In this document: positions 6,701 through 60,707 of the stretch, in pieces
Layout: every line of letters starts with the position of its first letter
How positions within the stretch are numbered: the first letter of the stretch is position 1
Notes under the pieces: generated by a model
The model's database searches: none
What the model saw: the letters and a program-made list of their open reading frames with translations, nothing else
What the model was told of the DNA's origin: nothing
Program-made: the position numbers and the translations under genes
DNA from: Lutraria lutraria
Taxonomy: Eukaryota; Mollusca; Bivalvia; Venerida; Mactridae
NCBI GenBank assembly: GCA_964023205.1
Contig: OZ026838.1
Coordinates: 30,655,843-30,719,842, forward strand
Direction: 5' to 3'
DNA: 64,000 nt

Positions 6701-9700
6701 TGAAGCCATGTCAGCCAGAATTTTTATGTTACATATACACAACATGATTTATCCAACATATATCTTTACCTTCCATTTCTTCTTTAACAGATTCTAACTC
6801 AACTTTGTTCTTCTGGAGTTCTTCTAGTTCCACCTGAAAATGAACAAATACTGTGAAATATACAAGCAATAATCAGTACTCTAAGTTATTATTTCCTATT
6901 ATGGAAGACATTCTATTTTTACATCTGTAATCCATGATTCTACTTCGCATTCCGATACTGGGCACAGCAGGCCATACCCTTCTATAAAACTTTGAAAAAA
7001 AAAATATTCCTCCATATATGGAGAAGTTGCAGGCTCCTTGCGAAAGGTGTTAGAATACACCAGGAAAACTGGTTAGGTGAACCAGACACCATATCAAGGG
7101 TTCAGCGCAACAGTGTCGTAACTCTTATTGAAATAAGAACAAGTTACAACAGTGTTGCGCTGAGCCCTCGATATGTAACAGAAATATCATTGACAACAGC
7201 CATAAAGCCACTGAAAGTGAATACATATAAGATGAGAATCATTAACACATGTTATACTGATATTTCAATCAGAGGTAAGAATTCTTCTACCTTTTTCTGT
7301 TCTCTCTTCAGCTTTCCTTCTTCAATATTCTTCAGTTTTTGTGTGTAACCTTCTTCTTGAAGTTGTCTGACTCTGTCAGCCTCTTCACGCATCTGCTTAC
7401 CTAGCTCCCTGTAAACAGACACATAAACTGTCTGATACATTATACACAAGAAATATTTGCCTGTCCAACAAGTTATATATATATATATATAAATTCGGAA
7501 TTAAAACTATGTATGCATTAAGGAAAATTTTAACCGACTACAAAATTTTATCAATAATCTTTTATGCAATCACGCCAAAAAATAGAGACCACAAAAAATA
7601 GAGACCACAAAAAATAGATTTAGCCATAAATACACGAAAGCATGTAAAGTTACTTATATGTCAATTACATTGTAACTCCTTCATTTAATATACCGAAAGA
7701 AAGACCGTATACTATAATAACAAGGACTTAAACATTACATAATAAACGCTTGCATCAAGATCACTTAAAAAATTAAGACTAAATCAAGATATAGAAAGAA
7801 CTAAAGCAAATAACGTACTTGCAGTTATTGACACATTCTATATTACCATCCCACTCATCTGTACCATCACAGCAATCTGAAGCAGAAAATCAAAGCACTG
7901 AAAGGACTGGAGGTTTTATATGTATAATTATTATATAAACCAAACTAATTCCTGAATGCTGCCTAAACTTTATGTATGGAAGATTCCATATTATTCAATA
8001 ATTAACAGATTGACTACACATGCCATGTTAACCATCTTAAATAAGGCCAAACATAATTATATACATGTATATACGTGAATTCATTCTTTATCAAATACTT
8101 CATCATTTATGTCAGAATATTAGATTCAATAAAACCCAATGTATCAGATTTATTGTTCTGGCAACTAATTTCTGAAAATGACAAATAGCATTGCTTCATT
8201 CTGACATTGATCTTTAATCTCATTTACTTTATGTTGGGACATTTTCTTACCACAAATTCCATCATTGACTCGAGATGACAATATATTCATTGGTCTGTAA
8301 CCAGCATTTGTACAATGAAACTTTCCACTTGGGCAGGCAGATGTACCTGAAAAAACAGAAAAACATATAACAGAATAATTACACTAAACAACATAGTACT
8401 TTTTTACCATTAACCATAATAGTTTGGTAGCCTACCAGTGTTGCAGCACAGTTGACTAAAACTGATTCTGTCAGTCTGGCATGCTTAAACCTGAGGTCAA
8501 CAGAGCAATTCATTCTGGATAGCAAGCTCCTATTTTGAATAACACAATGATTAAATTTTGAAAAGCTTTATTAGAAAGTCTCTAACGGAACTTAGTCCAC
8601 TATTTATAATATGGTTTGCTTTTTTGGTGTTGTATTTTTTTTGCAAAATTGGGATTACATCTAATCACAGTCAAATGATTTTTTTTATCAAATCATCAGG
8701 CATGCTAGGATGAAATGATGACGTTTTATATATGCATGGGTCTGGAAAACTGGAAAATTGAGAAAAAAAATTCAACAAATATTTCCAATGGACTTGTCCA
8801 TACAGTGACACAATTAGATGTAAATACATGACAATACATTAGCACACCTACCTGGTTCATCAGAACCATCAGGACAATCACAGTAATCATCATTCACATA
8901 CTCAAATGGAAATTCTTTAGAGCCATCAAGACATCTGAACTTTGGTCCTGGTTTGTAAAAACTGGCCACTGAAAATATGTAGTTACATAGTATAGCCTTC
9001 TATCATGGAGATTAGAATGCCTGCATAGGTACCGTATGGAATGTTCAAAAATTATACTGTACCATTCGCGCATACTGGTATGCAATATCTATTTTTGCAT
9101 TTCTTCTGTAGACAGACTTCTAAATCATCAATAATGGTTTGAATAGTTTTTCAGTAAAATAAAATAAATGTTACATGTCTAACAGGGTGACAGTAAAATT
9201 GTCAACTTGAGGAAATACTGCCAACTGAGGAAAAGTTGACAGTATAAGTATTTCTTGTTCTGTTGCATTTCCCCCAACTATGTATAAGGCTGCATGATGT
9301 TTTCTACATGAAAATAGACTGACTTAGGTCCTTATTAGTGAATTTAACATGACTTCTGGGGTGCCCATTAGCATTCATGCTTCAAACAAAAATCTCACTA
9401 CCATGACTATGTGATGTCAGTCATAAAGTCAACACAACCAATATTCATGTGTCATTTCACAGATACCTTACACAAAGCATATATTGATATTTATAAGAAT
9501 ATATGCCATTGGATGATTGACAAACAGGGTGAACTTGAAGCGCTGTGCCCATTTAGAATTTCACCTTCACTTCAGGACAGCCTAACCTTTTTGTGACAGT
9601 GAGTCAAATGTAATGAAAACTTCGATTGCCGACTATATACTTACTAGAAATCGCTACACCACGAGGGCGAGGTATGGTAGCCAGGCATGATGAAACTGAA

Positions 9701-11454: not shown

Positions 11455-11500
<46 letters not shown>
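11455..11500. repeat. TA dinucleotide microsatellite
   Basis: About 22 uninterrupted TA units lie just left of the detectable start of the first ~3 kb duplicated unit. Confidence 0.9.
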
Positions 11501-11502
<2 letters not shown>

Positions 11503-12128
11503 TAGTATACTACTATATATTTGCTCACCGACCATGCAGATTATCAGAAATAGTTCATACATTTTTAATATGATAAGAACGAATAATATGTGTCAAGTTG
11601 TCATCAATTACATCTTGGTAAAAATGGTAATCTTACTTGAAAAATGAATGATCGGGCAAATATTACATGTATTGATGACATATATTAGGTTTTATTTGTA
11701 ATCAACATTTCATTATTATTCGACCATCAATATGTGTTTTTACAAGATCTATGTCACGAAATGACACACGTATATAAAATATCAAAACTATTCTAATTAT
11801 ATAATATTTAATGCGTATCAACAAGTATTTCTTCTTCAAACGCGAAGAAAAATAATCCAATGTAACAAAGCATCTAGATTAGTCAACAAACCCTGTCGTT
11901 TTTCTACCACAATATACATACATACTTTCCTATCATCAATGATTGGCATTTAATTGGTTAACGTTAAAGATTAAAGGATTTTCACAGTTTTATCCACATA
12001 CGGAATTGAGCTGTTTTAGTCAAGTTTGCAACATGATTCTCTCAGCCACAAAGTGAATCCAATCAATGTATCAATTAGTTTGACAGTAAACAAACAAACA
12101 AAGTTGAACACGTCGTTAACTATTTCTG

Positions 12129-12136
12129 TATAAATA
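12129..12136 (+). promoter_or_regulatory. TATA box of repeat-RNA unit 1
   Basis: TATAAATA is identically placed in copy 2 (17552-17559). A transcription start about 30 bases downstream would precede the hairpin and the exon-1 donor. Confidence 0.6.
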
Positions 12137-12207
12137 CTGGTTGATTCAATTTGATCCTTATACCATCATAATGATCATCATGTGACAGGAGAAGAATTCA
12201 GATAGGT

Positions 12208-12235
12208 CGTTCTGGCCCTTTAAGGGTCGAGATCG
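12208..12235 (+). other. Stem-loop in putative exon 1, copy 1
   Basis: CGTTCTGGCCCT pairs with AGGGTCGAGATCG with one bulged G, one G-U pair and one mismatch. The equivalent in copy 2 pairs fully apart from the bulge. Confidence 0.6.
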
Positions 12236-13379
12236 TAAATAATAAAATACTTTAATTAATATTAGAACAAAATATAATAATACAAAAACGTCGGATTATT
12301 ATGATGGGAGTCGTTTTTGGAGATGTCATTTTAGTCAACACTACCAAAAACAGGTAAGTTATTTGATATATTCATTTATTTGTCAAACACTAAAAATCAT
12401 TTAATTTAATTTCAAGAATTGTTTCGACAAATTAAAATTAAAAATGTAGTTGAAAGTATCTTTGAAAACCCCTATTCTCAGTCAACAAATGAACGAACAA
12501 TTCATTTTTAAATGAAATGATAAACAAAATTATCTGTTTTTGGTTTGTTTTAATTTGATTAAGTAATAAATCATGAATGATTCAAGAATATCGATAAACG
12601 TACATTTTGAGAGGAAACTTGATATGTTTTATTCTTTTATTTCAGAAAAACATTGTCGAGAGAACATCTGTACTCAGACAAGAGAGACTAAACATGAAAT
12701 AAGAGAAACAACCAGCTGAAGAAAATAAAAAAGATCCTAGGTGAGTTTGTTATTACAACTATTTTTCCATTCAAATTATGACCATCGAAATATACATTGC
12801 TTGATAATCAATCATAAAAAGAAATGACTAAGAAAAAAAAAACGTAATTGATAAATTGCCAACAATAATTTGATAAAAATGGCTTTGTTTTAATTTGCAT
12901 GTTTGTATATTTATACTCCGATACATATATGTATATTCTAAGTGACCTTTTAAGTCCTGTCTGAAATTTGTTTAGATTTGTTTCAATTTACCTACATTTA
13001 AGATTTACAAAGAAACTATGAAATAAACGTACATACAAATATTATATTTCAGTAAATAACACGAACTCACTCATGAAGAAAATAAGTTCTGTTACCTGAA
13101 CGAGCAATGGCCGGAAGACCATTGCCATAAACGAAAGAAGTTAAAGAACACAGCTTATTTGCACGCCATTCGCACATTAATACAAATGTACAACAAAACG
13201 GGACTTGAATACAAGTAACGAAAAGAAATTGTTTTAAAAATAGTATGATGGATTTTCAAAATCAAGGACATTGGTACTGACTAAATTTTTATAATAACTA
13301 GATTACAGAAATCCGTCCAAATGTCTGTTCTGTCGTTAAATGTTTTGCTTTTGTTATTCGTTAATACGTTATCTGTTAT

Positions 13380-14535
13380 AGCTTACACTGTGATCTTTTT
13401 ACATTGACTGTGATGTTTTATCTGTGATATTTTACATTTACATTGACTGTGATATTTAACATTTACATTGAGTCTGATATTTTACATTCACATTGACTGT
13501 GATATCTTATCTGTAATATTTTACATTCACATTGACTGATATTTTACATTTACATCGACTGTGATATTTTACATTCACATTGACTGTGATATTTTATATT
13601 GACTGTGATATTTTATCTGTGATATTTTACATTGACTGTGATATTTAATCTGTGATGTTTTACATTTACATTGACTGTGATATTTTATATTGACTGTGAT
13701 ATTTTATCTGTGATATTTTACATTGACTGTGATATTTAATCTGTGATGTTTTACATTTACATTGACTGTGATATTTATATTCACATTGACTGTGATGTTT
13801 TATCTGTGATATTTTACATTCACATTGACTGTGATATTTTATCTGTGAAATTTTACATTTACATTGACTGTGATATTTTATCTGTGATATTATACATTTA
13901 CATTGACTGATATTTTATTTGTGATATTTTACATTTACATTGACTGTGATATTTAACATTTACATTGAGTCTGATATTTTACATTCACATTGACTGTGAT
14001 ATCTTATCTGTAATATTTTACATTCACATTGACTGATATTTTACATTTACATCGACTGTGATATTTTACATTCACATTGACTGTGATATTTTATATTGAC
14101 TGTGATATTTTATCTGTGATATTTTACATTGACTGTGATATTTAATCTGTGATATTTTACATTTACATTGACTGTGATATTTTATATTCACATTGACTGT
14201 GATATTTTATCTGTGATATTTTACATTTACATTGACTGTGATATTTTATCTGTGATATTATACATTTACATTGACTGATATTTTATTTGTGATATTTTAC
14301 ATTTACATTGACTGTGATATTTTAACTGTGATATTTTACATTTACATCAACTGTGATATTCTATCTGTGATATTTTACATTCACATTGACTGTGATATTT
14401 TACATTCACATTGACTGTGATATTTTACATTCACATTGACTGTGATATTTTACATTCACATTGACTGTGATATTTTACATTCACATTGACCGTGATATTT
14501 TACATTTACATTGACTGTAATTTTACGCTAGCAGT
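13380..14535 (+). repeat. Minisatellite of copy 1 (14- and 25-base modules)
   Basis: The array interleaves a ~25-base module (TTTACATTCACATTGACTG then TGATATT) and a ~14-base module (TTATCTGTGATATT). A higher-order duplication of about 497 bases is visible: the rare variant 'gagtctgatatt' recurs near 13470 and 13966 in the same context. Because 25 is not a multiple of 3, the array cannot encode a regular repeat peptide. Confidence 0.95.
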
Positions 14536-14797
14536 GATATTTATTTTTCTGTAATAATTTAGAAGTAACTTCCGTCCATTTGTTTGTTTTTTGTATGATA
14601 AATTAATGTTATTTTTATATTACTATTTTATTATGGGGTTTGGTTTGTTCAAATTGTATAAAAAAATATATAGAAAGCGTTTTCTTGGTGGTGGTATTTT
14701 GTTATTGCATGTTTGTTTTGAGTTCAATAAAAATATTTCCAGAAAAATCATATGTTCTGTGTGTTTCCATATTATTCGACTTAAATATGAATTTGCA

Positions 14798-14897
14798 AAA
14801 CTGTTCTACTTTTGCAAAGTTTTCTTTTACTAGTTTTGTCAATATTATACATAAGACAAAACTAGTAAAAGAAAACTTTGCAAAAGTAGAACAGTTT
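14798..14897. repeat. Perfect 43-base inverted repeat at reverse transcriptase edge
   Basis: Arms 14798-14840 and 14855-14897 are exact reverse complements around a 14-base loop. The right arm is continuous with the reverse transcriptase frame. The left arm adjoins sequence that ends the duplicated unit. Confidence 0.95.
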
Positions 14898-15905
14898 CTG
14901 AATGAAAAATTAATGCACAGATGCTTTGATATTGATCGTATCACTCCTTACGAGGTGAAACAGATTATAGATAAACTTAACATTAACAAATCTACAGGTC
15001 AAGATGGAATAGGTCCAAAAATATTGAAATATTGTGGAGATTTTATCACACCTGCAATATCACATATAATTAATTTAAGCTTTCGAAACGGTGTATTTCC
15101 AGATACATTGAAAGAAGCTTTAGTAATTCCTATATTTAAGAAGGGTTCAAAATCTGATCACTCAAATTACCGCCCTATATCAATTCTACCTACAATCTCT
15201 AAAGTCTTTGAACGTCATGTGGCTCAACAACTCAATTCATTTTTTCATGACACTGACATTATTCATGTAACTCAGTCTGGGTTCCGACCTAAACACTCGT
15301 GTCATACAGCTCTTTCGCGGTTGGTAAATTCGTGGCTGAGAGACATAGACGCTGATAATTATATAGGAGCTGTTTGTTTTGACTTACAGAAAGCATTCGA
15401 TATGGTTGACCATGAAATTTTGATTCACAAATTGAAGCTGTATCATTTTTCAAATCGTTCCCTAGAATTCTTTAAATCATACCTAAGCAAAAGAAAACAA
15501 CAAGTTAAATCAAATACAAACCATTCAGAATCAATGTTTATAAAATCTGGAGTTCCTCAAGGTTCAATCTTGGGCCCTTTATTGTTTTTGTTGTATATTA
15601 ATGATATTAGTATCGTCTCAGATAGTATCAATATTGATCTATTTGCTGATGACTCAACTATTCACATTTCAAATAAAGATATAAATATTATTGAATTGAA
15701 TCTTCAGGAGAACATCACTGCAATCTTAAATTGGTGTACTTTGAATAATATGTCGCTTCATCCAGATAAATCAAAATGCATGTTAATTTCTGCAAAAAAT
15801 CGAATAAAAAATGCACGACCCTTAAATCTCTTTATAAATAATATAAATATTGAGAACGTGCGCGTTCAGAAAATCTTAGGAGTCTATATTGATAATGCTT
15901 TATAG
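14855..15905 (+). mobile_element. Truncated non-LTR retrotransposon reverse transcriptase
   Basis: The frame encodes a reverse transcriptase of the LINE type. Motifs in order are NKSTGQDGIGP, NYRPISILP, QSGFRPKHSCHTAL, DLQKAFDMVDHEIL, GVPQGSILGPLLFLLYIND, the catalytic FADDS (about 15642-15656) and a terminal LGVYID. The endonuclease domain, the segment after LGVYID, and any poly(A) or 3' repeat tail are absent, so this is a fragment truncated at both ends. The frame extends left to a Met at 14640, but those residues lie in flanking sequence and are not part of the enzyme. Similarity is to CR1/Jockey-like elements; the clade is uncertain. The frame has no stop or shift, suggesting a fairly recent insertion. 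Confidence 0.9.
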
Positions 15906-15931
15906 ATAATAGATAATACCAGTATTAATAG

Positions 15932-16710
15932 TTACAGGGTTAGTAACATGTATATATAATCAGTATTATATATATTCATACTTTATTTGTGTCTCATTTG
16001 TATACATACAATGACATGCATATGTGATTTCTTTCCAAATAAATAAAACATGTATACAACCATTCTGTTTAAGAATTTCAAGAGACATAAATTATATATT
16101 ATAAAAAAAAACAATAATATAAAATCATAATATTATAAGAAACTCTACTATCGAGCTAGTCTATATATTACGATATTACAAGACGTAAGGTGAGCTAATC
16201 CAGCATAAAAACTTCATAAAAGGGGAAAATGCATATTTTAAAAAGATCGACTTTCATCTAAGAACAGATCTGGGATACATTATACGTATAAAAAATAATG
16301 GAATTATTTACAAATAAATAAAACCCGGCGTTGCAATATATTAAAACAGATTTTGGCACAATTACGTTTCATATCGGTTTTAGTGAACAAAAATGTAAGT
16401 TTTTCAGTTTTAGACAATTGTGCAAATGTACTGTCTATAGCCTTAGCTTTCTCAAATAATGTTTCTCGTAGATCTTCATACATATATATTATGCCATGTG
16501 GTGCAATTACCAAATGTTATATTTGTACTGTTCTGTGTATATATATGTACATATTTATATATATGTTTGTTATTATAATATAAATTTCACCAGGCATGTA
16601 TTTGCCGACTTTGTGAATAAAGTGAAACTGAAACAGTAACTGACCCGATACGGGATATACGGTTCTGTGGAAAACCATATGGGCGAGACCGAAGGTTACT
16701 AACCCTGTAA
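15932..16710. repeat. Possible inverted-repeat-bounded element
   Basis: TTACAGGGTTAGTAAC at 15932-15947 is exactly repeated in reverse complement at 16695-16710, 779 bases apart in total. The interior has no recognised protein. It lies between the reverse transcriptase fragment and copy 2. It may be a non-autonomous DNA element or an inverted duplication. Confidence 0.45.
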
Positions 16711-17551
16711 GGATTATATCACGCAGACTACCTTCTCCCTCATCATTTACAATAACAGTCTCCATTTTAGACCCAATATTTAAAATAAATAAATGTCTCC
16801 ATTACAGACCCAATATATTCTGGTAACCTAATATAGAATATATTAGGTCACCACGTGACGTCGAAACATCCAATGACAGGTATAATGCAATGCGTTCCAA
16901 ATATTATACTATATTTGTACACAGCCCATGCAGCTCATCGTAAATGGTTCATATTTGGACAAGAACGAATTCAAAAGTAAAACGTATGTCAAGTTGTAAT
17001 TAATTACATCTTTATAAAAAAAGTACTCTCTCTTATGCTAGAAATTAATGCTTGCTGTAAAATGAATGATCGGGCAAGTATTGCGTATAAATGACATTAG
17101 GTTTTATATACATGTATATATATTATTAACATTTTGTTGTTATTCGATCATTATTGTGTGTTTTTACAAGATCTATGTCAAGAAATGACACACGTGTATA
17201 AAATATTAAAACTATTCTAATTATATAATATTTAATGCGTATCAACAAGTATTTCTTCTTCAAACGCGAAGAAAAATAATCCAATGTAACAAAGCATCTA
17301 GATTAGTCAACAAACCCTGTCGTTTTTCTACCACAATATACATACATACTTCCTATCATCACTGATTGGCATTTAATTGGTTAACGTTAAAGATTAAAGG
17401 ATTTTCACAGTTTTATCCACATACGGAATTGAGCTGTTTTAGCCAAGTTTGCAACATGATTCTCTCAGCCACAAAGTGAATCCAATCAATGTATCAATAA
17501 GTTTGACAGTAAACAAACAAACAAAGTTGAACACGTCGTTAACTATTTCTG

Positions 17552-17559
17552 TATAAATA
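17552..17559 (+). promoter_or_regulatory. TATA box of repeat-RNA unit 2
   Basis: TATAAATA in a context almost identical to that of copy 1. Confidence 0.6.
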
Positions 17560-17630
17560 CTGGTTGATTCAATTTTATCCTTATACCATCATAATGATCA
17601 TCATGTGACAGGAGAAGAATTAAGATAGGT

Positions 17631-17658
17631 CGTTCTGACCCTTATAGGGTCGAGAACG
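17631..17658 (+). other. Stem-loop in putative exon 1, copy 2
   Basis: CGTTCTGACCCT pairs with AGGGTCGAGAACG over 12 base pairs, with one bulged G and a three-base loop. Confidence 0.65.
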
Positions 17659-18664
17659 TAAATAATTAAATACTTTAATTAATATTAGAACAAAATATAA
17701 TAATACAAAAAACGGCGGATTATTATGATGGGAGTCGTTTTTGGAGATGTCAGTTTAGTCAACACTACCATAAACTGGTAAGTTATTTGATATATTCATT
17801 TTTTAAACAAATTTGATCTTATTTAATTTCAAGAATCGTTTCGATGAATTAAGTTAGACATTAATATACATATCTGTTTTTTTTATTTAAGTAATAAATC
17901 ATGAATGATTCAAGTACATCGATTAAGACATGTTTTGAGAGGAAACTTGAAATATTTAATTATATTATTCCAGAAAGACAAGAGAATAACTGTACACAGA
18001 CAAGAGAGACAGAAAATGAAATAAAATGAACTACCAGCTACAGAAATTCTGAAATCACCAGGTGAGTTTAATTATTATTACAACTGTATTTTTCCATTCA
18101 AATTATGACCATCGAAATATGCATTTCTTGATAATCAATCACATAAGGAAATAACTAAGAAATTATAACATTTTACATGATAAATTTTCGACAATAATTT
18201 GATAAAAAAAGTTGGCTTTGTCTTAATTTGCATGTTTGTATAATTATTCCTCACATACTTATAAATTCTTAAGTGGCATTTAAATGTTTTCAGTCCTGAA
18301 TGGAATATATTGGTATTTGTTTCAATTTACCTACATTTAAGATTTACAAAAAAACAATGAAATAAACGTACATACAAATATTATGTTTCAGTAAATAACA
18401 GGGATGTTCATGAAGAAAATAAGTTCCGTTTCCAAACGAGCAAGTGGAGGTTAAAGAAGACATACATGTACATACACGTACACCTAAGCATGCACGAAAC
18501 GAAAGGAAGTGTCGTTTTAAATGGTATGATGGATTTTCATAATCCATCATATTGGTACTGACTAAATTGTTATAATAATTATATTCCAGAAATCCGTCCA
18601 AACATCTGTTCTGTTATTAAATGTTTTGCATTTTGTTATTCGTTAATACGTTATCTGTTATAGT

Positions 18665-19500
18665 TTACACTGTGATATTTTACATTGACTGTGATATTTT
18701 ATCTGTGATATTTTATCTGTGATATTTTACATTTACATCGACTGTGATATTTTACATTTACATCGACTGTGATATTTTACCTGTGATATTTTACACCTAC
18801 ATTGACTGTGATATTTTACATTTACATCGACTGTGATATTTTACCTGTGATATTTTACACCTACATTGACTGCGATATTTTACATTTACATCGACTGTGA
18901 TATTTTACCTGTGATATTTTACACCTACATTGACTGTGGTATTTTACATTTACATCGACTGTGATATTTTACCTGTGATATTTTACATTTACATTGACTG
19001 TGATATTTTACCTGTGATATTTTACACCTACATTGACTGTGATATTTTACACCTACATTGACTGTGATATTTTACACCTACATTGACTGTGATATTTTAC
19101 CTGTGATATTTTACATTCACATTGACTGTGATATTTTACATTCACATTGACTGTGATATTTTGTCTGCGATATTTTACATTCACATTGACTGTGATATTT
19201 TGTCTGTGATATTTTACATTCACATTGACTGTGATATTTTGCATTTACATTGCCTGTGATACTTTATCCGTGAAATTTTAAATTTACATTGACTGTGATA
19301 TTTTATAATTATGTGAAATTTTACATTTATATTGACCGAGATATTTTACATTTACATTGACTGTGATATTTTATCTGTGATACTTTACATTGACTGTGAT
19401 ATTATAACTGTGATATTTTGCATTCACTTTTTTTTCTGTGATATTCTATATGTGATATTTAACATTTCACTATAACAGTGATATCTAATTTTTCTATAAT
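18665..19500 (+). repeat. Minisatellite of copy 2
   Basis: Same modules as copy 1, but with a locally amplified variant (TTTTACACCTACATTGACTG, 'tttacctgtgatatt') absent from copy 1. The arrays have therefore diverged separately since duplication. Confidence 0.95.
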
Positions 19501-19749
19501 AAGTTTAAAATATTAACTGTGATAAAACTTTCCGTCCAACTGATAACTTTTTGTATGATTTTTTATACATGTATTACTTATGGAGTTTGGTTTGCTTAAA
19601 TTGTATATAAAATGCTATAGACTGTGTTTCTAGGTGATGGTATTTTAATTGTTATTGCATGTTGTTTGAGTTCAATAAAAAAAATATTTACGGAATACAC
19701 GTGCTTTGATTTTTCAGTAGTATTATACATTATCCGATTTAGTGTGTGG

Positions 19750-21318: not shown

Positions 21319-24300
21319 ATGACAGATTTCTTTAAATCTGCTCTTGGGTACATCAGTGGGGCCCAAGGTGTCAGAGATGAAAACGATTTTGTTGGACAAA
21401 TTGTTGAGCTAGGCAGTCAAAAGCTCAGAGTAAAACGGAAAATTGCTGAAGGTACATTACCCCACCCATCCACATATTTAATGAAATATTGCGTTGTCTA
21501 ATGTCATAATCTTACCATAATCAGATATCTATGTGTCCATCGTATGCTTATTACTATATCCGTTTCCCCTTCAAAATAAATACAGCAGATTTTAAAGGAA
21601 CTTGTATAATTTTACATGTATATGGGGCTGTATTAAAATTTAAATACCCCCTCCCCTCAAGTCCTTCGTCCCTTTTTTCACCTGAGTCCCACGTCCCTCC
21701 ATATATTAAGGATTGAGTTGCGTCCCATTTGAAAAGAAATGTGAGTCCCGTTTTGCCACTGCATCCTGCCTAAAAAGGGGTATTTTTACAGCCACACATA
21801 TTGGTTGTCTGTGTAACTTATTTCAGTTTGGTCACTCCTTGTAGAATTTCTGTTGTAGTAATGAGAGACATCATTAAATTAGTAAATAACCACCATTGCC
21901 CTGTTAGATCTCACAGTTGTTTTGCCTCTCAATGGAAAGCATCATGCTAAATCTTGTGTTAAAAGGTATTTCATCTAACTTTGATTATCATATGATGAAG
22001 TAAAAAATGTGATTGACTTCAACAACTACTATTTGAAAGAGTTGATTTGTCTGTAGTGTTTTTGTATGTCTGTTACTGCAAATATAATATTGTTGTAAGT
22101 ATAATGTGAAAGTCAGAATAACTGTAAATGAATGTATACATATTTTGACATCAACAATATTACATTCGTACAGACTTTGCGAAAGGCGTCGGACCGAAGG
22201 ATATGTCCGATGGATTGTGTGTCTGTCCATTAAAGAATCTTATCTCATCGGACCGGCTGTCCGGCGACTTATTACCTGATGTATACACCTTTATACTTGT
22301 TTACTGTTTTTGGTCTGGCAGATTTCCTTTAGGTCTGACAGAATTTTCAAGCTTGTTGGACCGAATGTCCGGCTGATTTTTTTGCCTTTCGCGAAATCTG
22401 TTTGTATGTTGCTTATGAGTTACTTGTTTAAATTAATTTTTTTGAAGCACTTGCCCATACTATTAATAGACTATTGAAAATAGGCAATTGACCACTAGCC
22501 TAAATACATAATGTTGAGAAAGTTAGTATAAAGACTATAAGTATAATGTCCCCCGACAACCTGTTCTAAAAAAATAGTTTCAAACCCAGCATTAAATTTC
22601 ATTGTCTGTTTTTCTGAAGGAAAAGCCAATTAATTTCTTTTATAGTGAGTTCAGGGGTTTCATTAGACATCAAAAGTTGAGGGTCAAATATGGCCCATGG
22701 CTGTTAATAATTTAAGAAGTCAGCCAAATTTCCTACTAGTACTATCGTAATAACAAGTTTGACTATTTGGTACAAATTCTCAAGAGTCAGAATCCTTATT
22801 TTACTAATTCAAGGTTAAAATTACCATTTTAAGGTCAAATAACAGCCCTGGAGTTCATTCAAACTGTCCTTACATTTGCTTTTTCTTGCCTCATCAAGTA
22901 TATCCATGTAGTTCTCAGTAATTGTATTAAGAAGATATCTAAAAACTGAAGCAATGCACTATGAGGAGGGATTTAAAATGTTGAAACAAGTATATTTGTC
23001 AGATGATTATAGAATCAATGCTGATTTTAGGTGTACTAGTCGTTAAGTACATGTACTTATGAAATTTATAAAGTAGCTTGCTAAATACATGGTGAAAGAA
23101 ATCCTTTTTATTTATTTTTCACGATCTTTTTATGTATATTTTAGGTGGATTTGCATTTGTATTCGTTGCTCAAGACAATTCATCAGGAAAAGAGTATGCA
23201 CTGAAGGTGAAGAAAACTTTGATAATTTTGTAGAGATTTTACTCTTGTTTGGGTCCATGATCAGTTTTGCCCCAGAAGTTTCTAATGTTAGAGTACAGAA
23301 CATTTTTTGTTTAATTATGCAGAAATATTTCAATGTCCATGTGGAATAGAATATAATTTTACCTCGGGAACAGGGCCAAATATTGGACCCAAAGATGCCA
23401 TAAAAAAGGCCTGTTGTTTATATTCCATTATTGCATCATATTCAAAACCTACATGTGTATTTTTCAGAGATTGCTGGCAAATGATGAAGAAAAAACAAAG
23501 GCTGTAGTTCAAGAGATCAAATTTCTTGTATCCTTTGATATGTTTATGTTACAATCTAATGTTAGCTCATAATGATATCTTTATATGTACTATGTAACTG
23601 GAGTTATTATGGATAAACAGGAAGATAGCCTGTATTGCAAGAAAGTCATAAACTTATAATTGATATAAAGAATATAAAGATGTGTTGTTTAATGATGATA
23701 CATGAGCACTGTTCAATATTTGACAATTTGAAAAAGTTATTATAAACATATTTGTACTATCTTATTGCATTAAAACGTTGTTTACTAACACGACGGCCAT
23801 AATTCGGTCATATATTATGTTATTTTGTATAAGATGAATGATGTGAGACAGTAGCGACTAGTGCTAGCAGTTCTGCTTATGTTATTGTAAAAAAAGATTT
23901 ATATTTACCATATGTTACAGACTAAACTAGTGTTTGCCTTAATGAAACACAGAAAAAATTGACAGGTCATCCAAATATTGTACAGTTTACTTCTGCTGCA
24001 TCTATTGGTAAGGAGCAATCTGGACATGGACAAGCGGAATATCTCTTACTGATGGAATTATGTACTGGTATGTGTATATAAAAATGTTTTATGAAGTTAT
24101 ATTCCCCAGAGGGTCTATTAAATTTTTGCTTATAACAAGTATTACAACTTGTATAGCTAACTTTTGAATTTCTAATTGATCTGGTTACAACTCCATTTGT
24201 AAGTTAATCATTGAACTGCTGAATACATTTTGTACTGTATGCCTTAGTTAATATAAACAAACACTTTCTATATCACTTACAGGTGGACAAGTAGTGGATT

Positions 24301-27300: not shown

Positions 27301-30300
27301 TCCAAATAAAGGCCATCTGTCAGTAAAGGCCACATTTTTTTGTTAATTGGATTCACTGTAGTATAATTTAATGTTTACTATGTATTCTATTTTAATTTGA
27401 CACAATTTTGATGTTTTACTCTTTTCATTTTTTCAGCTCTATGAACAAAACAGATTTAGATATCAGTTACATCACATCAAGAGTTTTAGGTAAGATATGT
27501 TTGATTTAATCATCTTATAAGACTGTCTTTAAAAAAATATTTGTCTAACATAAACCAGTGAGCACGGCTTCAGATTGTAACTTACAAGTTTGTGATTTCT
27601 TATAACATTAAATAAAAGAAATGACTCGAGATAAGTAAAGGATTGTTATTTTTGTGTGTTTCTGTTTTACAACATGACTTCTTCAGTAATTGAAGTTCTC
27701 TTTTTATTCCAGTTATGTCTTTCCCAGCAGAAGGTATGGAATCTGCGATTAAAAATCACATAGATGATGTTAGAAATTACCTTGAAGGCCGTCATCGGAA
27801 TTGTTATGCTGTGTATAATTTATCTCAAAGACAATATAGAAATGCCAAATTTGAAAATAGAGTAAGTATGTAAAATAGATATTGGAAATACTGTGGCTAT
27901 ATCATAAACTGTTTCAAGTAATAAGTTCTTAGTATGTGAGTTTTTTGTAAAACTCAGTGGTCTAGCTTTTGTGTCAATTATTATTTAACTACACTATATA
28001 TCAAATTAGTAATGATTCTGTTCATAAGTGACATCTGAACTTTAATAGATTCAACATGACTAATCTTGTCACAAATATATATCAAAGAATTCAGTTGGTT
28101 AGAGTTATGCCATAGATATCTTTCAAATGTGACTTCTAAGATATTGAATTCAAGGCATCTTTCTTTGTGTATAAATCAAATTATGTTTTCATTTATTATG
28201 ATGAGTGATTAAATTTCAGGTCAGTGAATGTGGTTGGCCAGTGAAAAAGGCTCCAACTCTTGCCAGTATGTTTGCCATCTGTAAAAATATGCATCTATGG
28301 TTACGGCAGAATCCAAAGAACATATGTGTTGTACATTGTTTGGTGAGTTTATGGTCTGATTAAAAAAGTCATGTAGGTGATGTCGATATATATGAGATGG
28401 TTTTATGTATTGATAATTTTGGCGTCAGTCTAGTTAAGATTAAACGGTTTTAATGTACAGACTGTATTGTCTAACTTGCCTCTGATTAGAATACTTGTTG
28501 CTTGTGTGTTACCATTAGATTTTACCAAAATAAATATGATTGATAATTGGTAATTAAATCAGATTGTATGTACATGTATAGAATGTAATTTTAATGTATG
28601 TAATACACAGTTTTGTAATATATTCTCCTTTGTTTGCCTCATATTGAACTAACCATTTTTATGTACAATAGGATGGTAAAGCATCATCAGCAACTATAAC
28701 TGCAGCATTTCTTGTCTTCTGTCATTTATTTGATGGTCCTCAACAAGCCCTCACCATGTTTAGTAATAAAAGATGTGCCCCTGATGTCACACCCTCTCAA
28801 AGAAGGTAAGCACTTCAATTTAAAGGTTAACATTTTATCTACAGGTAATTCATGGTGCTTATGTTAAATGTCAAATTTGTTAGTAATGTTTATGGAATAG
28901 TTTTCATTTTGACAAGTACTTTTCCATCTCATGACAATCCTATTTTTTCAACCTAGAAAATGAAACATTCAACTTCAGTTGTAAGAAACTTGATTTTCTA
29001 CTGTCAGTAGATAAATAGTCAATACTACATGATAAAATTTTCAAAATACTTTCAGCTCTATTTTTAGTTTTTCACTTGATTAATGGAAGTTTGAATTTCT
29101 GATTAAAAAAAATACTAATTAAAGAAAGTCCATCCACTCATTTAAATGAATCATTGATAAATAAAAGAAACCATTTCAAAGAACTAATTCATTGATAGTG
29201 TATCATGTGATATTATCATTGTGTTTCAGATATATAGAATACCTCAGTGAGATGGTTAGTGATGAACCTTACCGTCCTCATACAAAATCTCTCATCTTAA
29301 ACAGTATTACACTATCACCCGTACCACTCTTCAATAAAATGAAGTAAGTTATATTTTTTTCTGTTTAGTCTTATTCCCGATCCTCGTTGCTGCAAAATTT
29401 TCCTATGTTATTCTTTCTTACTTTCAGTCATTTGTTGCTTGAAACTTTAAGTAAAATGATATTGTATGGTCAGAACCATCTGCTTACTGGTATGTACGTG
29501 TACTAGCTGAGTTCTTTTACTTACCAGTTTGTTAAATATTTCAATTTTACAAATCAGTGACATTTTAAGCCATGTCTTGAAACTTAATTACTTAATCATA
29601 GGCCACTAAAGGTGTTGATCTTGCATCTGACCTACTGCAGTAATGGACACGTCCCCTCATACAGTTCTGAATTTCTAGGAGCTTTGTATAAAGAAGAATT
29701 GTTGGTAATAATTATTTTTTCCTCGAATGTATACATATGGGATAATCTTTAGTAATGGTTCTTTTATCACTACAGAAATGGCTGTACTCCATTTGTTGAG
29801 GTATATGTTGGTGAAGATAGAATTCTTTCCACATCACAAGAGTATGACAAAATGAAAGGATACTCAGAATATGAAGGGAAAGTTACGTTACCATTAAATA
29901 TATCAGCAGCTGGTGACATCTCTATTGTTGTTTATCATGCTCGGTCAACGTTTGGCGGTAAAATACAAGGAAAGGTGAGCTATATCATTCTTTGAGCTAA
30001 GCATTTGAATGTTTAGTGTCTGATTTTAAAGGCTGGTGTTTTAATTATTTGATCTAAAAACAGTCCAGAATTTGGTTTTATATTCTGCTGTTGGTTGTAT
30101 CTTAATTTACTATGGCTTCTAAGAATCATATTATTTTCACTGCTTGATTTTGCAAATAACTCACAAGTTAAGTCATTGACTTGGGCTGTACAAATTTAAC
30201 ATATAGTACATTATTTTAATTTCAAATAAACTCAGTTTATAATCATATGATGGTGAGTTGTTAACTTTTTATGTTTTGGGTCATTTCAGATTACTTCCAT

Positions 30301-41885: not shown

Positions 41886-42215
41886 AGGCTTAAATTGAAA
41901 TTAAGTTTGTTTGCCCTTTACCGACCCACCCGAAAAAATCAAGCCGACTCAAAAGATTTTATTGCAAAATCTGGGAGAACTTTATAATGTATGTTAAGGC
42001 ACTGAGTACATGTTTATGGTTGATAAAAACACACAATAAATGGTAGCAGAATACATAAAATGACTATATAATGCTTCTAGATAGAAGTGTAATTTCATGC
42101 TAGGTAACTAAAGGTCAAATTCAGAAATAAAATAAAATATTTTTCCTACCTACCGACCCTCTTCTAAAATTCAGGCTCGGTAAAGTGCAAACAAACATAT
42201 TTTTAATTTAGGCCT
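41886..42215. repeat. 330-base MITE upstream of ELOC, copy A
   Basis: The ends AGGCTTAAATTGAAATTAAG and AGGCCTAAATTAAAAATATG (reverse complement) begin inverted repeats of about 40 bases. The interior matches 44354-44710 closely (for example 'tggtagcagaatacataaaa'). Confidence 0.85.
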
Positions 42216-42340
42216 CATGCAGTTTTCCACTAAAGTAAAGTTCATCTTGCATCAAGTTTTTTCTTCCCCCAAATTTAAGGAAAAGTCCCCTTCCTGTGAA
42301 AAAAGCCCTGTTGTATTTATAAATTGGCTGGAATATTAAC

Positions 42341-42455
42341 GCCCCGATTAGTTCAGTTGGTAGAGCATCTGACTTGCATGCAGGAGGTTGCAGGTTCTAG
42401 CTCCACATCGGGTACATTATTTTCTTCCTCCTAGGCTATTACACTGTTTTAGCTG
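42341..42455 (+). repeat. tRNA-derived SINE
   Basis: A tRNA-like head (A box GTTCAGTTGGTAGAGC; anticodon-loop position CTTGCAT) is followed by a body reading GGTACATTATTTTC, also found at 58480-58552. The acceptor and anticodon stems have mismatches and the T loop is degraded, so this is a SINE rather than a working tRNA-Ala gene. Confidence 0.75.
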
Positions 42456-43144: not shown

Positions 43145-45097
<1,953 letters not shown>

Positions 45098-51634: not shown

Positions 51635-51737
51635 ACTATAACAGGAGGAGGAATTAAAAACATTTACTCGATGTGGGGCTTGAACTCGTGACCTTCTGCT
51701 TGCAAGTCAGATGTTCTACCAACTGAGCTAATCAGGC
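51635..51737 (-). repeat. tRNA-derived SINE, minus strand
   Basis: The reverse complement shows a tRNA-like head (GATTAGCTCAGTTGGTAGAA, loop CTTGCAA, GAGTTCAAG T-loop) followed by a TTTTAATTCCTCCTCC body similar to the other SINE copies. The acceptor stem does not pair well, so it is not called as a tRNA gene. Confidence 0.75.
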
Positions 51738-54332: not shown

Positions 54333-55367
54333 ACAGTTAAATCTGGTGAACAAAGGCCACCCTTGGGTAAGACAAAATGTGACCTTTATTCGGAGGTCAT
54401 TTTGTATTATTAGTATTTTTTTTTATTACCCCTCACTTTTTTCGTAATGTTAATTTCCCATAGACAAACAGGTAACATTTTTACTGTTACATTCATGGTA
54501 CCACGTGACTGAACATTGTTTACTGTCACTGGGTGATAGTAAATTTTTAACAGTATTTTTTTACTGTCACATAGGTGATAGTAAATTTTTAACAGTATTT
54601 TTTTACTGTCACATAGGTGATAGTAAATTTTTAACAGTATTTTTACTGTCACATAGGTGATAGTAAATTTTTAACAGTATTTTTTTACTGTCACATAGGT
54701 GATAGTAAATTTTTAACAGTATTTTTACTGTCACATAGGTGATAGTAAATTTTTAACAGTATTTTTTTACTGTCACATAGGTGATAGTAAATTTTTAACA
54801 GTATTTTTACTGTCACATAGGTGATAGTAAATTTTTAACAGTATTTTTACTGTCACATAGGTGATAGTAAATTTTTAACAGTATTTTTTTACTGTCACAT
54901 AGGTGATAGTAAATTTTTAACAGTATTTTTTTACTGTCACATAGGTGATAGTAAATTTTTAACAGTATTTTTACTGTCACATAGGTGATAGTAAATTTTT
55001 AACAGTATTTTTTTACTGTCACATAGGTGATAGTAAATTTTTGACAGTATTTTTTTACTGTCACAGGGTAATAGTAAATTTCTAACAGTATTTTTACTGT
55101 CACAGGGTAACAGTAATTTTTTTACAGTCACATAGATGATAGTATTTTTTAAAAGTATTTTCTTGAAAAAAGTTTGGGGTAATAAAATAAATATCACATA
55201 GCCTTCGGCCTTGGGTAACAGTACTTTCCTCAGGCTGACATTTTTACTGTTACCCACAAAGCTATATGTTATTTATATACTGAATATTCAATGACGGCTT
55301 TTAAAAGAATGACCTTTATTCACAGGATGGCCTTTATTCATAAGTGGCCGCTAACACAAGGTTGACA
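54333..55367. repeat. Older repeat copy split by a later insertion
   Basis: 54333-~54408 and ~55270-55367 are the two halves, in reverse orientation, of the family seen intact at 48239-48415. They keep 'gacctttattcggaggtcat' on the left and 'gtggccgctaacacaaggtt' on the right. Everything between is extra relative to the intact copy. Confidence 0.7.
54421..55187. mobile_element. Inverted-repeat element filled with a hairpin minisatellite
   Basis: The ends at 54421-54443 and 55165-55187 are 23-base inverted repeats with two mismatches (TTTTATTACCCC...CTTTTTTC). Between them about 16 tandem units of 39 or 41 bases follow; 12 carry the exact core ACTGTCACATAGGTGATAGT. Each core is itself a 10-bp stem with an ATAG loop, and the linker ACAGTATTTTT...TACTGT can form a second stem. 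It resembles tandem-repeat-containing MITEs described from bivalves, but no known family is asserted. No transposase is present. Confidence 0.75.
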
Positions 55368-59987: not shown

Positions 59988-60707
59988 ATGGCAGCTAAGG
60001 AGGATGAAAAAGGACTGCTAGGAGCTGAGGTTAAACCAGAACACGATAAGTTCGCCGAGGAATTCCATGACCCACCGTCGAAACCAGGTAGCCGAAAATC
60101 CAGCAAAACATCAACACCCCGCAAAAAGGCATGTCCCGATTATTTTGGAGTAAAGTCGTATTTACATGATTTCTACGAAACCACATACAAAGATCCGTCG
60201 ATATACGAAGAAGAGGACGACTTCCGGTTCCTGTTGCATTCAAATCAGCGCCGTCGACGATGTCCACAAATTTGGTGGAAGGTGTTTATGTGGCTTGGAG
60301 TTAATTTGTTAATATTCGGAATTCTGGGAATACTTGTTGGATATCTGGTGCCACAGAAATCGATTTTCTCCAAGGTTGATGAAGAAAACAGTGAGGGGTA
60401 TGTCGATCGCGGGGCTATTGCGTTTAATACAACTCTTGACGTATGTAAGCTTGTTGGACTAATCTTGTTTTGTATTGGAGGTATGACGCTAGCAATGGCG
60501 TTATTATTTCCAAGTTTTCTGACTTCGTATTGCGATGAAGATCCGACAGACGACAACTTTAAAGTTACACTGGATGATGACGAGACCCCTCAGAGTCCAG
60601 TAGAAATGGCTATTCCGAAAATATCTAAAGTCAAAAGTGTGCAGCCCCTGCGCACGGTACCGGAAGGCGTGGTCACAAATGAAGGGGTTTTGGATTATAA
60701 GGACTAA
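59988..60707 (+). CDS. NRSN1-like: Neurensin-family two-pass membrane protein
   Basis: Neurensins are small vesicle-membrane proteins known from vertebrate neurons. This 239-residue protein fits the family: YFGVKSYLHDFYE (52-64), an EEEDDF stretch (74-79), a first hydrophobic segment at about 98-121 ending in VGYLVPQK, then GAIAFNTTLDVCKLVGLILF leading into a second at about 153-178 (CIGGMTLAMALLF), and a C-terminal VKSVQPL motif shared with vertebrate neurensin-1. The charged N-terminus with PRKK is longer than in vertebrates. There is no signal peptide. The ATG follows TTAAG, and TTATTTTAG at 59927-59935 looks like an acceptor, suggesting a non-coding 5' exon upstream. Assignment to a particular vertebrate paralogue is not made. 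Confidence 0.88.
   Translation: MAAKEDEKGLLGAEVKPEHDKFAEEFHDPPSKPGSRKSSKTSTPRKKACPDYFGVKSYLHDFYETTYKDPSIYEEEDDFRFLLHSNQRRRRCPQIWWKVFMWLGVNLLIFGILGILVGYLVPQKSIFSKVDEENSEGYVDRGAIAFNTTLDVCKLVGLILFCIGGMTLAMALLFPSFLTSYCDEDPTDDNFKVTLDDDETPQSPVEMAIPKISKVKSVQPLRTVPEGVVTNEGVLDYKD

Follow-up and report, generated by a model that had tools for sequence, protein, structure and literature searches.

What do two tandem, partly diverged units represent, when each carries the signals of a spliced gene and ends in a minisatellite? The question is raised by a 64-kb window of the genome of the clam Lutraria lutraria (64,000 nucleotides of contig OZ026838.1, analysed as a whole; all positions refer to it). The best explanation, to which we would give about an even chance, is that the units are two paralogous long noncoding RNA (lncRNA) genes, derived from an old tandem duplication, whose product would have a repeat-bearing terminal exon.

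The two candidate genes are neighbours in the intergenic space between a PRKCSH-like gene on the − strand and a GAK-like gene on the + strand. The former is marked by an exon at 8168–8383. The latter contains a kinase-like exon at 24252, which narrowly misses the Pfam cut-off (E 2.3e-6), and at 29756 a PTEN C2 exon; it is this exon order, in our own reading, that gives the neighbour its name. A neurensin-like frame (59988–60704) has 88% identity to Mactra antiquata neurensin-1, the best match among the 120 proteins listed of 125 found. Between unit 1 and unit 2 there is an RVT_1 fragment (LINE-like reverse transcriptase, 14798–15905), which starts with an inverted repeat at 14798–14897 (self-match 94% over 102 columns). 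A tandem array at 54519–55128, made of 42-bp, partly palindromic units with 94% matches, is apparently unrelated to the paired units. Two tRNA matches lie above the Rfam gathering score (42342–42414, + strand, and 51665–51737, − strand; 34.0 and 34.6 bits) and are possibly, at a guess, tRNA-derived SINEs. A direct repeat of about 240 bases with 87% identity (41984–42218 versus 44475–44713) has its first copy ending about 120 bases upstream of the match at 42342.

Architecture of the two units

Self comparison of the window gave homology between about 11516–14746 (unit 1) and about 16910–19696 (unit 2). The same elements are found in the same order in both: a TATAAATA TATA box (at 12129 in unit 1 and at 17552 in unit 2), two donors, two acceptors and, close to the 3′ end, GTTCAATAAA, with AATAAA at 14726–14731 and 19674–19679; the 3′ ends align. 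The tandem copies and all the landmarks named for them in the first-pass annotation (TATA box, two donors, two acceptors, AATAAA) are present. The predicted donors lie directly after 12353 and 12740 in unit 1 and after 17777 and 18061 in unit 2, and the predicted acceptors directly before 12646 and 13053, and 17974 and 18392, respectively. Each promoter copy has two direct and two inverted CCAAT boxes, and FOX-like and SOX-like motifs, matched to consensus sequences, are common to both copies. The features are listed below; the starts of exon 1 are predicted, that of unit 1 from its TATA box.

11516–11785, + strand: unit 1 outer upstream segment, which has diverged (67% identity to unit 2, gaps included, over 11516–11770)
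11786–12154, + strand: unit 1 promoter core, with TATAAATA at 12129–12136 (4/368 mismatches versus unit 2)
12155–12353, + strand: unit 1 predicted exon 1 (10/199 mismatches; donor CAG/GTAAGT)
12354–12645, + strand: unit 1 predicted intron 1, from donor and acceptor scores
12646–12740, + strand: unit 1 predicted exon 2 (21/88 mismatches versus unit 2)
12741–13052, + strand: unit 1 predicted intron 2 (donor TAG/GTGAGT, acceptor TTTCAG)
13053–14750, + strand: unit 1 predicted terminal exon, from the acceptor, the shared 3′ end and AATAAA at 14726–14731 (predicted end)
13387–14542, + strand: unit 1 minisatellite of 25-mer and 14-mer monomers (TRF)
16910–17209, + strand: unit 2 outer upstream segment, from alignment to unit 1
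17210–17577, + strand: unit 2 promoter core, with TATAAATA at 17552–17559
17578–17777, + strand: unit 2 predicted exon 1 (donor CTG/GTAAGT; predicted start)
17974–18061, + strand: unit 2 predicted exon 2, from splice-site scores and segment mismatch counts
18392–19700, + strand: unit 2 predicted terminal exon, from the acceptor, the shared 3′ end and AATAAA at 19674–19679 (predicted end)
18669–19484, + strand: unit 2 minisatellite, with a 25-mer consensus identical to that of unit 1

Its promoter, splice and poly(A) signals being arranged in a single order, the unit looks like a Pol II gene, and we infer that both copies are transcribed and spliced. The splice sites were scored with a consensus matrix. 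The four donors rank 1, 2, 9 and 10 among the + strand positions of the window; donors of such strength are, singly, not rare, because eight positions of the − strand reach a score of at least 10.95. On the + strand, sites like the first acceptors are rarer (one per 4000 and one per 2667 bases), and the second acceptors are ordinary (one such site per 192 and 220 bases). The full chain of TATA box, donor, acceptor, donor and acceptor is found on the + strand of the window at exactly the two units and nowhere on the − strand, and of 200 first-order Markov strands simulated at 64 kb only 2 contained any chain (mean 0.015 chain starts per strand). The chain thresholds are the units' own weakest sites, set after the sites were seen, and the two units are not independent; the result therefore shows how rare such a chain is, not how it would fare in a blind test. 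The retention of the splice sites in both copies, against a background identity of about 80%, is on its own only suggestive, and it is the weaker evidence because most bases are shared by descent.

Uneven divergence of the copies

In the alignment of unit 1 (11516–13385) to unit 2, 243 of the 1706 ungapped columns differ. The core (11786–12377), which contains the promoter and exon 1, has 14 mismatches in 591 columns, versus 229 in 1115 for the rest. The best low-divergence segment, 11733–12373, has 17 mismatches in 640 columns and forms a well-delimited, near-identical block (LLR 69.2, versus at most 9.5 in 200 shuffles). Beyond the promoter and exon 1, the mismatches amount to 38/196 in intron 1, 24% in exon 2 and 44/309 in intron 2, and the single-copy parts of exon 3 (50/275 before the array, 39/185 after it) have diverged like the introns. 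The conservation of exon 2 does not exceed that of the introns (p 0.09 for the reverse tendency), and constraint on the whole mature RNA is therefore not shown. The introns and short frames had been described as the diverged parts, which holds for the frames (32 versus 17 amino acids, see below), but exon 2 shows no less divergence than the introns. The earlier proposal of constraint on a transcript rather than on a peptide agrees with the lack of a relative for two frames, but not with a mature RNA body that is kept no better than the introns.

When the core was split at 12153, a boundary picked after seeing the data, 3/367 mismatches fell upstream and 11/225 downstream (Fisher p 0.003; mismatches were divided and denominators set by hand, and the latter sum to one above the 591 columns). 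With this post hoc boundary, the promoter is even better kept than the predicted transcribed part of the core.

The minisatellite arrays lie within the predicted last exon of both units and would therefore be part of a mature RNA. The expectation that this exon would hold over 1 kb of 14/25-base repeats is borne out in unit 1, where the array measures about 1.16 kb, but not in unit 2, where it measures about 0.8 kb. The unit 1 array has 23 monomers of 25 bp and 16 of 14 bp, and that of unit 2 has 20 and 14, plus other lengths in each. The 25-mer consensus is the same in the two arrays; for the 14-mer, unit 2 leaves a tie at the final base. Monomers were selected for exact length and for resemblance to CTGTGATAT, a choice biased towards the consensus at the first nine positions. 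Pairs of monomers differ on average by 7.1% in unit 1, by 11.5% in unit 2 and by 10.4% when one is taken from each unit, which by subtraction leaves a net between-array divergence of about 1%, versus about 20% for single-copy DNA outside the core. Selection on the repeat unit and exchange between the arrays would both give such a low value. There is also a higher-order period, of 497 bases (2.2 copies) in unit 1 (13441–14502) and of 64 bases (7.8 copies) in unit 2 (18703–19201), a difference that points to separate rearrangement of the two arrays.

The promoter, exon 1 and the repeat motif were most likely held alike by selection, gene conversion or both, and conversion could explain the alike parts as well as constraint could. 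A duplicated noncoding or dead locus, part of which is kept alike by gene conversion and any transcript of which would be functionless noise, is possible but rather unlikely. It would account for the sharp limits of the near-identical block, for a net array divergence of the size that exchange would give and for an exon 2 that evolves like the introns; the excess of mismatches downstream of 12153, however, is not expected from one recent conversion, and the strong donors persist in both copies. We consider it improbable that the kept 0.6 kb is regulatory DNA, a promoter or enhancer for GAK or PRKCSH with the transcripts as by-products. The highest conservation is indeed found upstream of the predicted start, in a pair of units that sits between those two genes and shares CCAAT, FOX-like and SOX-like motifs, but donors, acceptors, poly(A) signal and repeat motif are also kept downstream in both copies.

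Reading frames, RNA families and further copies

From the ATG that the copies share, the spliced frame runs for 32 amino acids in unit 1 and for 17 in unit 2, and the tails differ. Up to the splice junction the reading is MMGVVFGDV[I/S]LVNTT[K/I]N in each, and no ATG-started frame is alike between them past the first 17 amino acids. An ATG-less frame runs unbroken through exons 1 and 2 and ends at a common stop in the two copies, and in unit 2 a further frame, of 68 aa, is open through exons 2 and 3. Homologue searches covered two of the many frames: the protein search with the array frame gave no match at E up to 10 among 48 candidates, and that with the joined exon 1–2 frame of unit 1 gave no candidate. 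For these two frames, the view that the units have no conserved protein is upheld. A peptide gene was rejected because the frames differ and the two that were searched lack a homologue, and a family of short-peptide genes, whether intact or decayed, is very improbable; the common N-terminal reading and the shared stop of the ATG-less frame would fit it, but the ATG frames differ in length and end, the joined unit 1 frame is without relatives and exon 2 has the mismatch level given above.

At the gathering threshold, Rfam gave nothing over either unit, and a permissive scan gave four matches in each, all below the gathering scores. A C/D box scan gave four candidates and no convincing pair in either unit; the only candidates at matching places of both copies fall within exon 1, at 12169 and 17592 of the − strand. 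In snoRNA host genes the introns are at least as alike as an exon, and the clam introns are likewise at least as alike as exon 2. A snoRNA host gene was rejected, given the C/D motif scan and the sub-threshold Rfam matches.

Exon 1 is predicted to fold, with a z-score of −3.35 in unit 1 (12160–12352) and −3.31 in unit 2 (17583–17776), and 3 of 200 and 1 of 200 shuffles, respectively, fold at least as well. The two folds are not independent, because the sequences are 95% alike. The predicted fold has a 14-bp closing stem, and stems like it form 20 clusters in 64 kb, about one per 3 kb (counted by eye, with both unit stems included). The stem was rejected as proof of structure, since similar inverted repeats are common and the closing stem has no changes able to covary. 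An inverted repeat across donor 1 of unit 1 (12343) has no unit 2 counterpart among inverted repeats with arms up to 200 bases apart.

Copies were sought in the whole genome (728.5 Mb, 71 contigs) with a 1501-base query, which gave at least 21 matches, all within the two units, and with the 583-base core, which gave at least two, the units themselves; each search scored two candidates, and the counts are lower bounds. The 25-mer, with up to four substitutions allowed, occurs 55 times in the window and is absent from a 200-kb flank (20 stretches of 10 kb). BLAST over this flank showed no further copy, the best matches listed being short, with E 0.004 or more. A transposon with dispersed copies was rejected on the two places, as a lower bound, that both searches gave. 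Bivalve elements with internal tandem repeats exist, and the space between the units holds a LINE-like reverse transcriptase fragment, but a transposable element with accidental splice-like motifs is extremely improbable, weakened as it is by the two copies in the genome searches, in which few candidates were scored, and by the flank without another.

A candidate repeat RNA and its known counterparts

Under the lncRNA reading, an old tandem duplication would have left two genes between the PRKCSH-like and GAK-like genes. Transcription by Pol II would begin about 25–30 bases past the TATA box, splicing would take two short introns out of the transcript, and the RNA would be cleaved and polyadenylated after AATAAA. 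The product would consist of a foldable leader exon and, at its other end, a terminal exon with 0.8–1.2 kb of 14/25-nt repeats. Selection or exchange would act on the repeat unit as well as on the promoter and leader exon to hold them, leaving the remaining sequence to drift. The most speculative step, made by analogy, is that the repeat exon may bind protein, as a multivalent platform for an RNA-binding protein in the manner of hsr-omega or NORAD.

The array motif UGUGAUAU occurs 40 times in unit 1 and 31 times in unit 2 and resembles the PUF-protein sites UGURNNAU of nematode FBF, which we take as a lead only. The Pumilio consensus site UGUANAUA occurs 0 times in both arrays, and a NORAD-type Pumilio decoy was rejected on this ground. 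Folding of the array gave z-scores of +2.23 and −2.57 (20 shuffles each), with no fold in common, and a folded array was rejected.

A gene of the hsr-omega type would be expected to have heat-shock elements in its promoter; hsr-omega is heat-shock induced, whereas no three-part or two-part heat-shock element was matched in 11756–12360 or 17180–17785 of the clam units. The candidate units resemble hsr-omega of Drosophila, which PMC7151548 describes as a gene for a noncoding RNA that carries a long stretch of tandem repeats and which is reported to be single-copy (PMC9032817); the hsr-omega repeats, as given in PMC7151548, are of 280 nt and extend over about 10 kb, versus 14/25 nt and about 1 kb here. 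NORAD shares with the units the many repeats, and is described as an lncRNA able to hold many protein molecules (PMC7151548, PMC4947167), but it is made of 12 units of about 300 nt (PMC4947167). The architectural RNAs HSATIII and PNCTR resemble the units in the short repeats that serve, as PMC7151548 describes them, as a binding platform in RNA, a role that is for the clam units an analogy; the repeat is another one, and the clam locus is a small, apparently spliced unit pair and not a satellite block. The units had been said to match no described RNA family, which stands in so far as no Rfam family matched them at threshold, but lncRNAs that carry repeats, among them hsr-omega, Firre and NORAD, form a known class, according to PMC7151548. 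Among the titles listed for repeat or architectural lncRNAs in combination with bivalve, mollusc or oyster there was no such bivalve repeat RNA, which is not proof of absence.

A multivalent repeat RNA, modelled on hsr-omega, NORAD and the architectural RNAs with short repeats as these are described in PMC7151548, PMC4947167 and PMC9032817, fits the uneven divergence of the copies. Tentatively, and with considerable doubt, we suggest a lineage-specific lncRNA pair in the clam in which concerted evolution affects the promoter, the 5′ exon and the repeat motif and the rest drifts, so that only the timing of expression, set by the promoter, and the binding unit, provided by the repeat, would be selected. 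If the units are transcribed, the pair would offer a compact way to test which parts of a repeat-bearing lncRNA are visible to selection, since two old copies show side by side the parts that are held, namely the promoter, the 5′ exon and the repeat unit, and the parts that drift, the middle exon and the introns.
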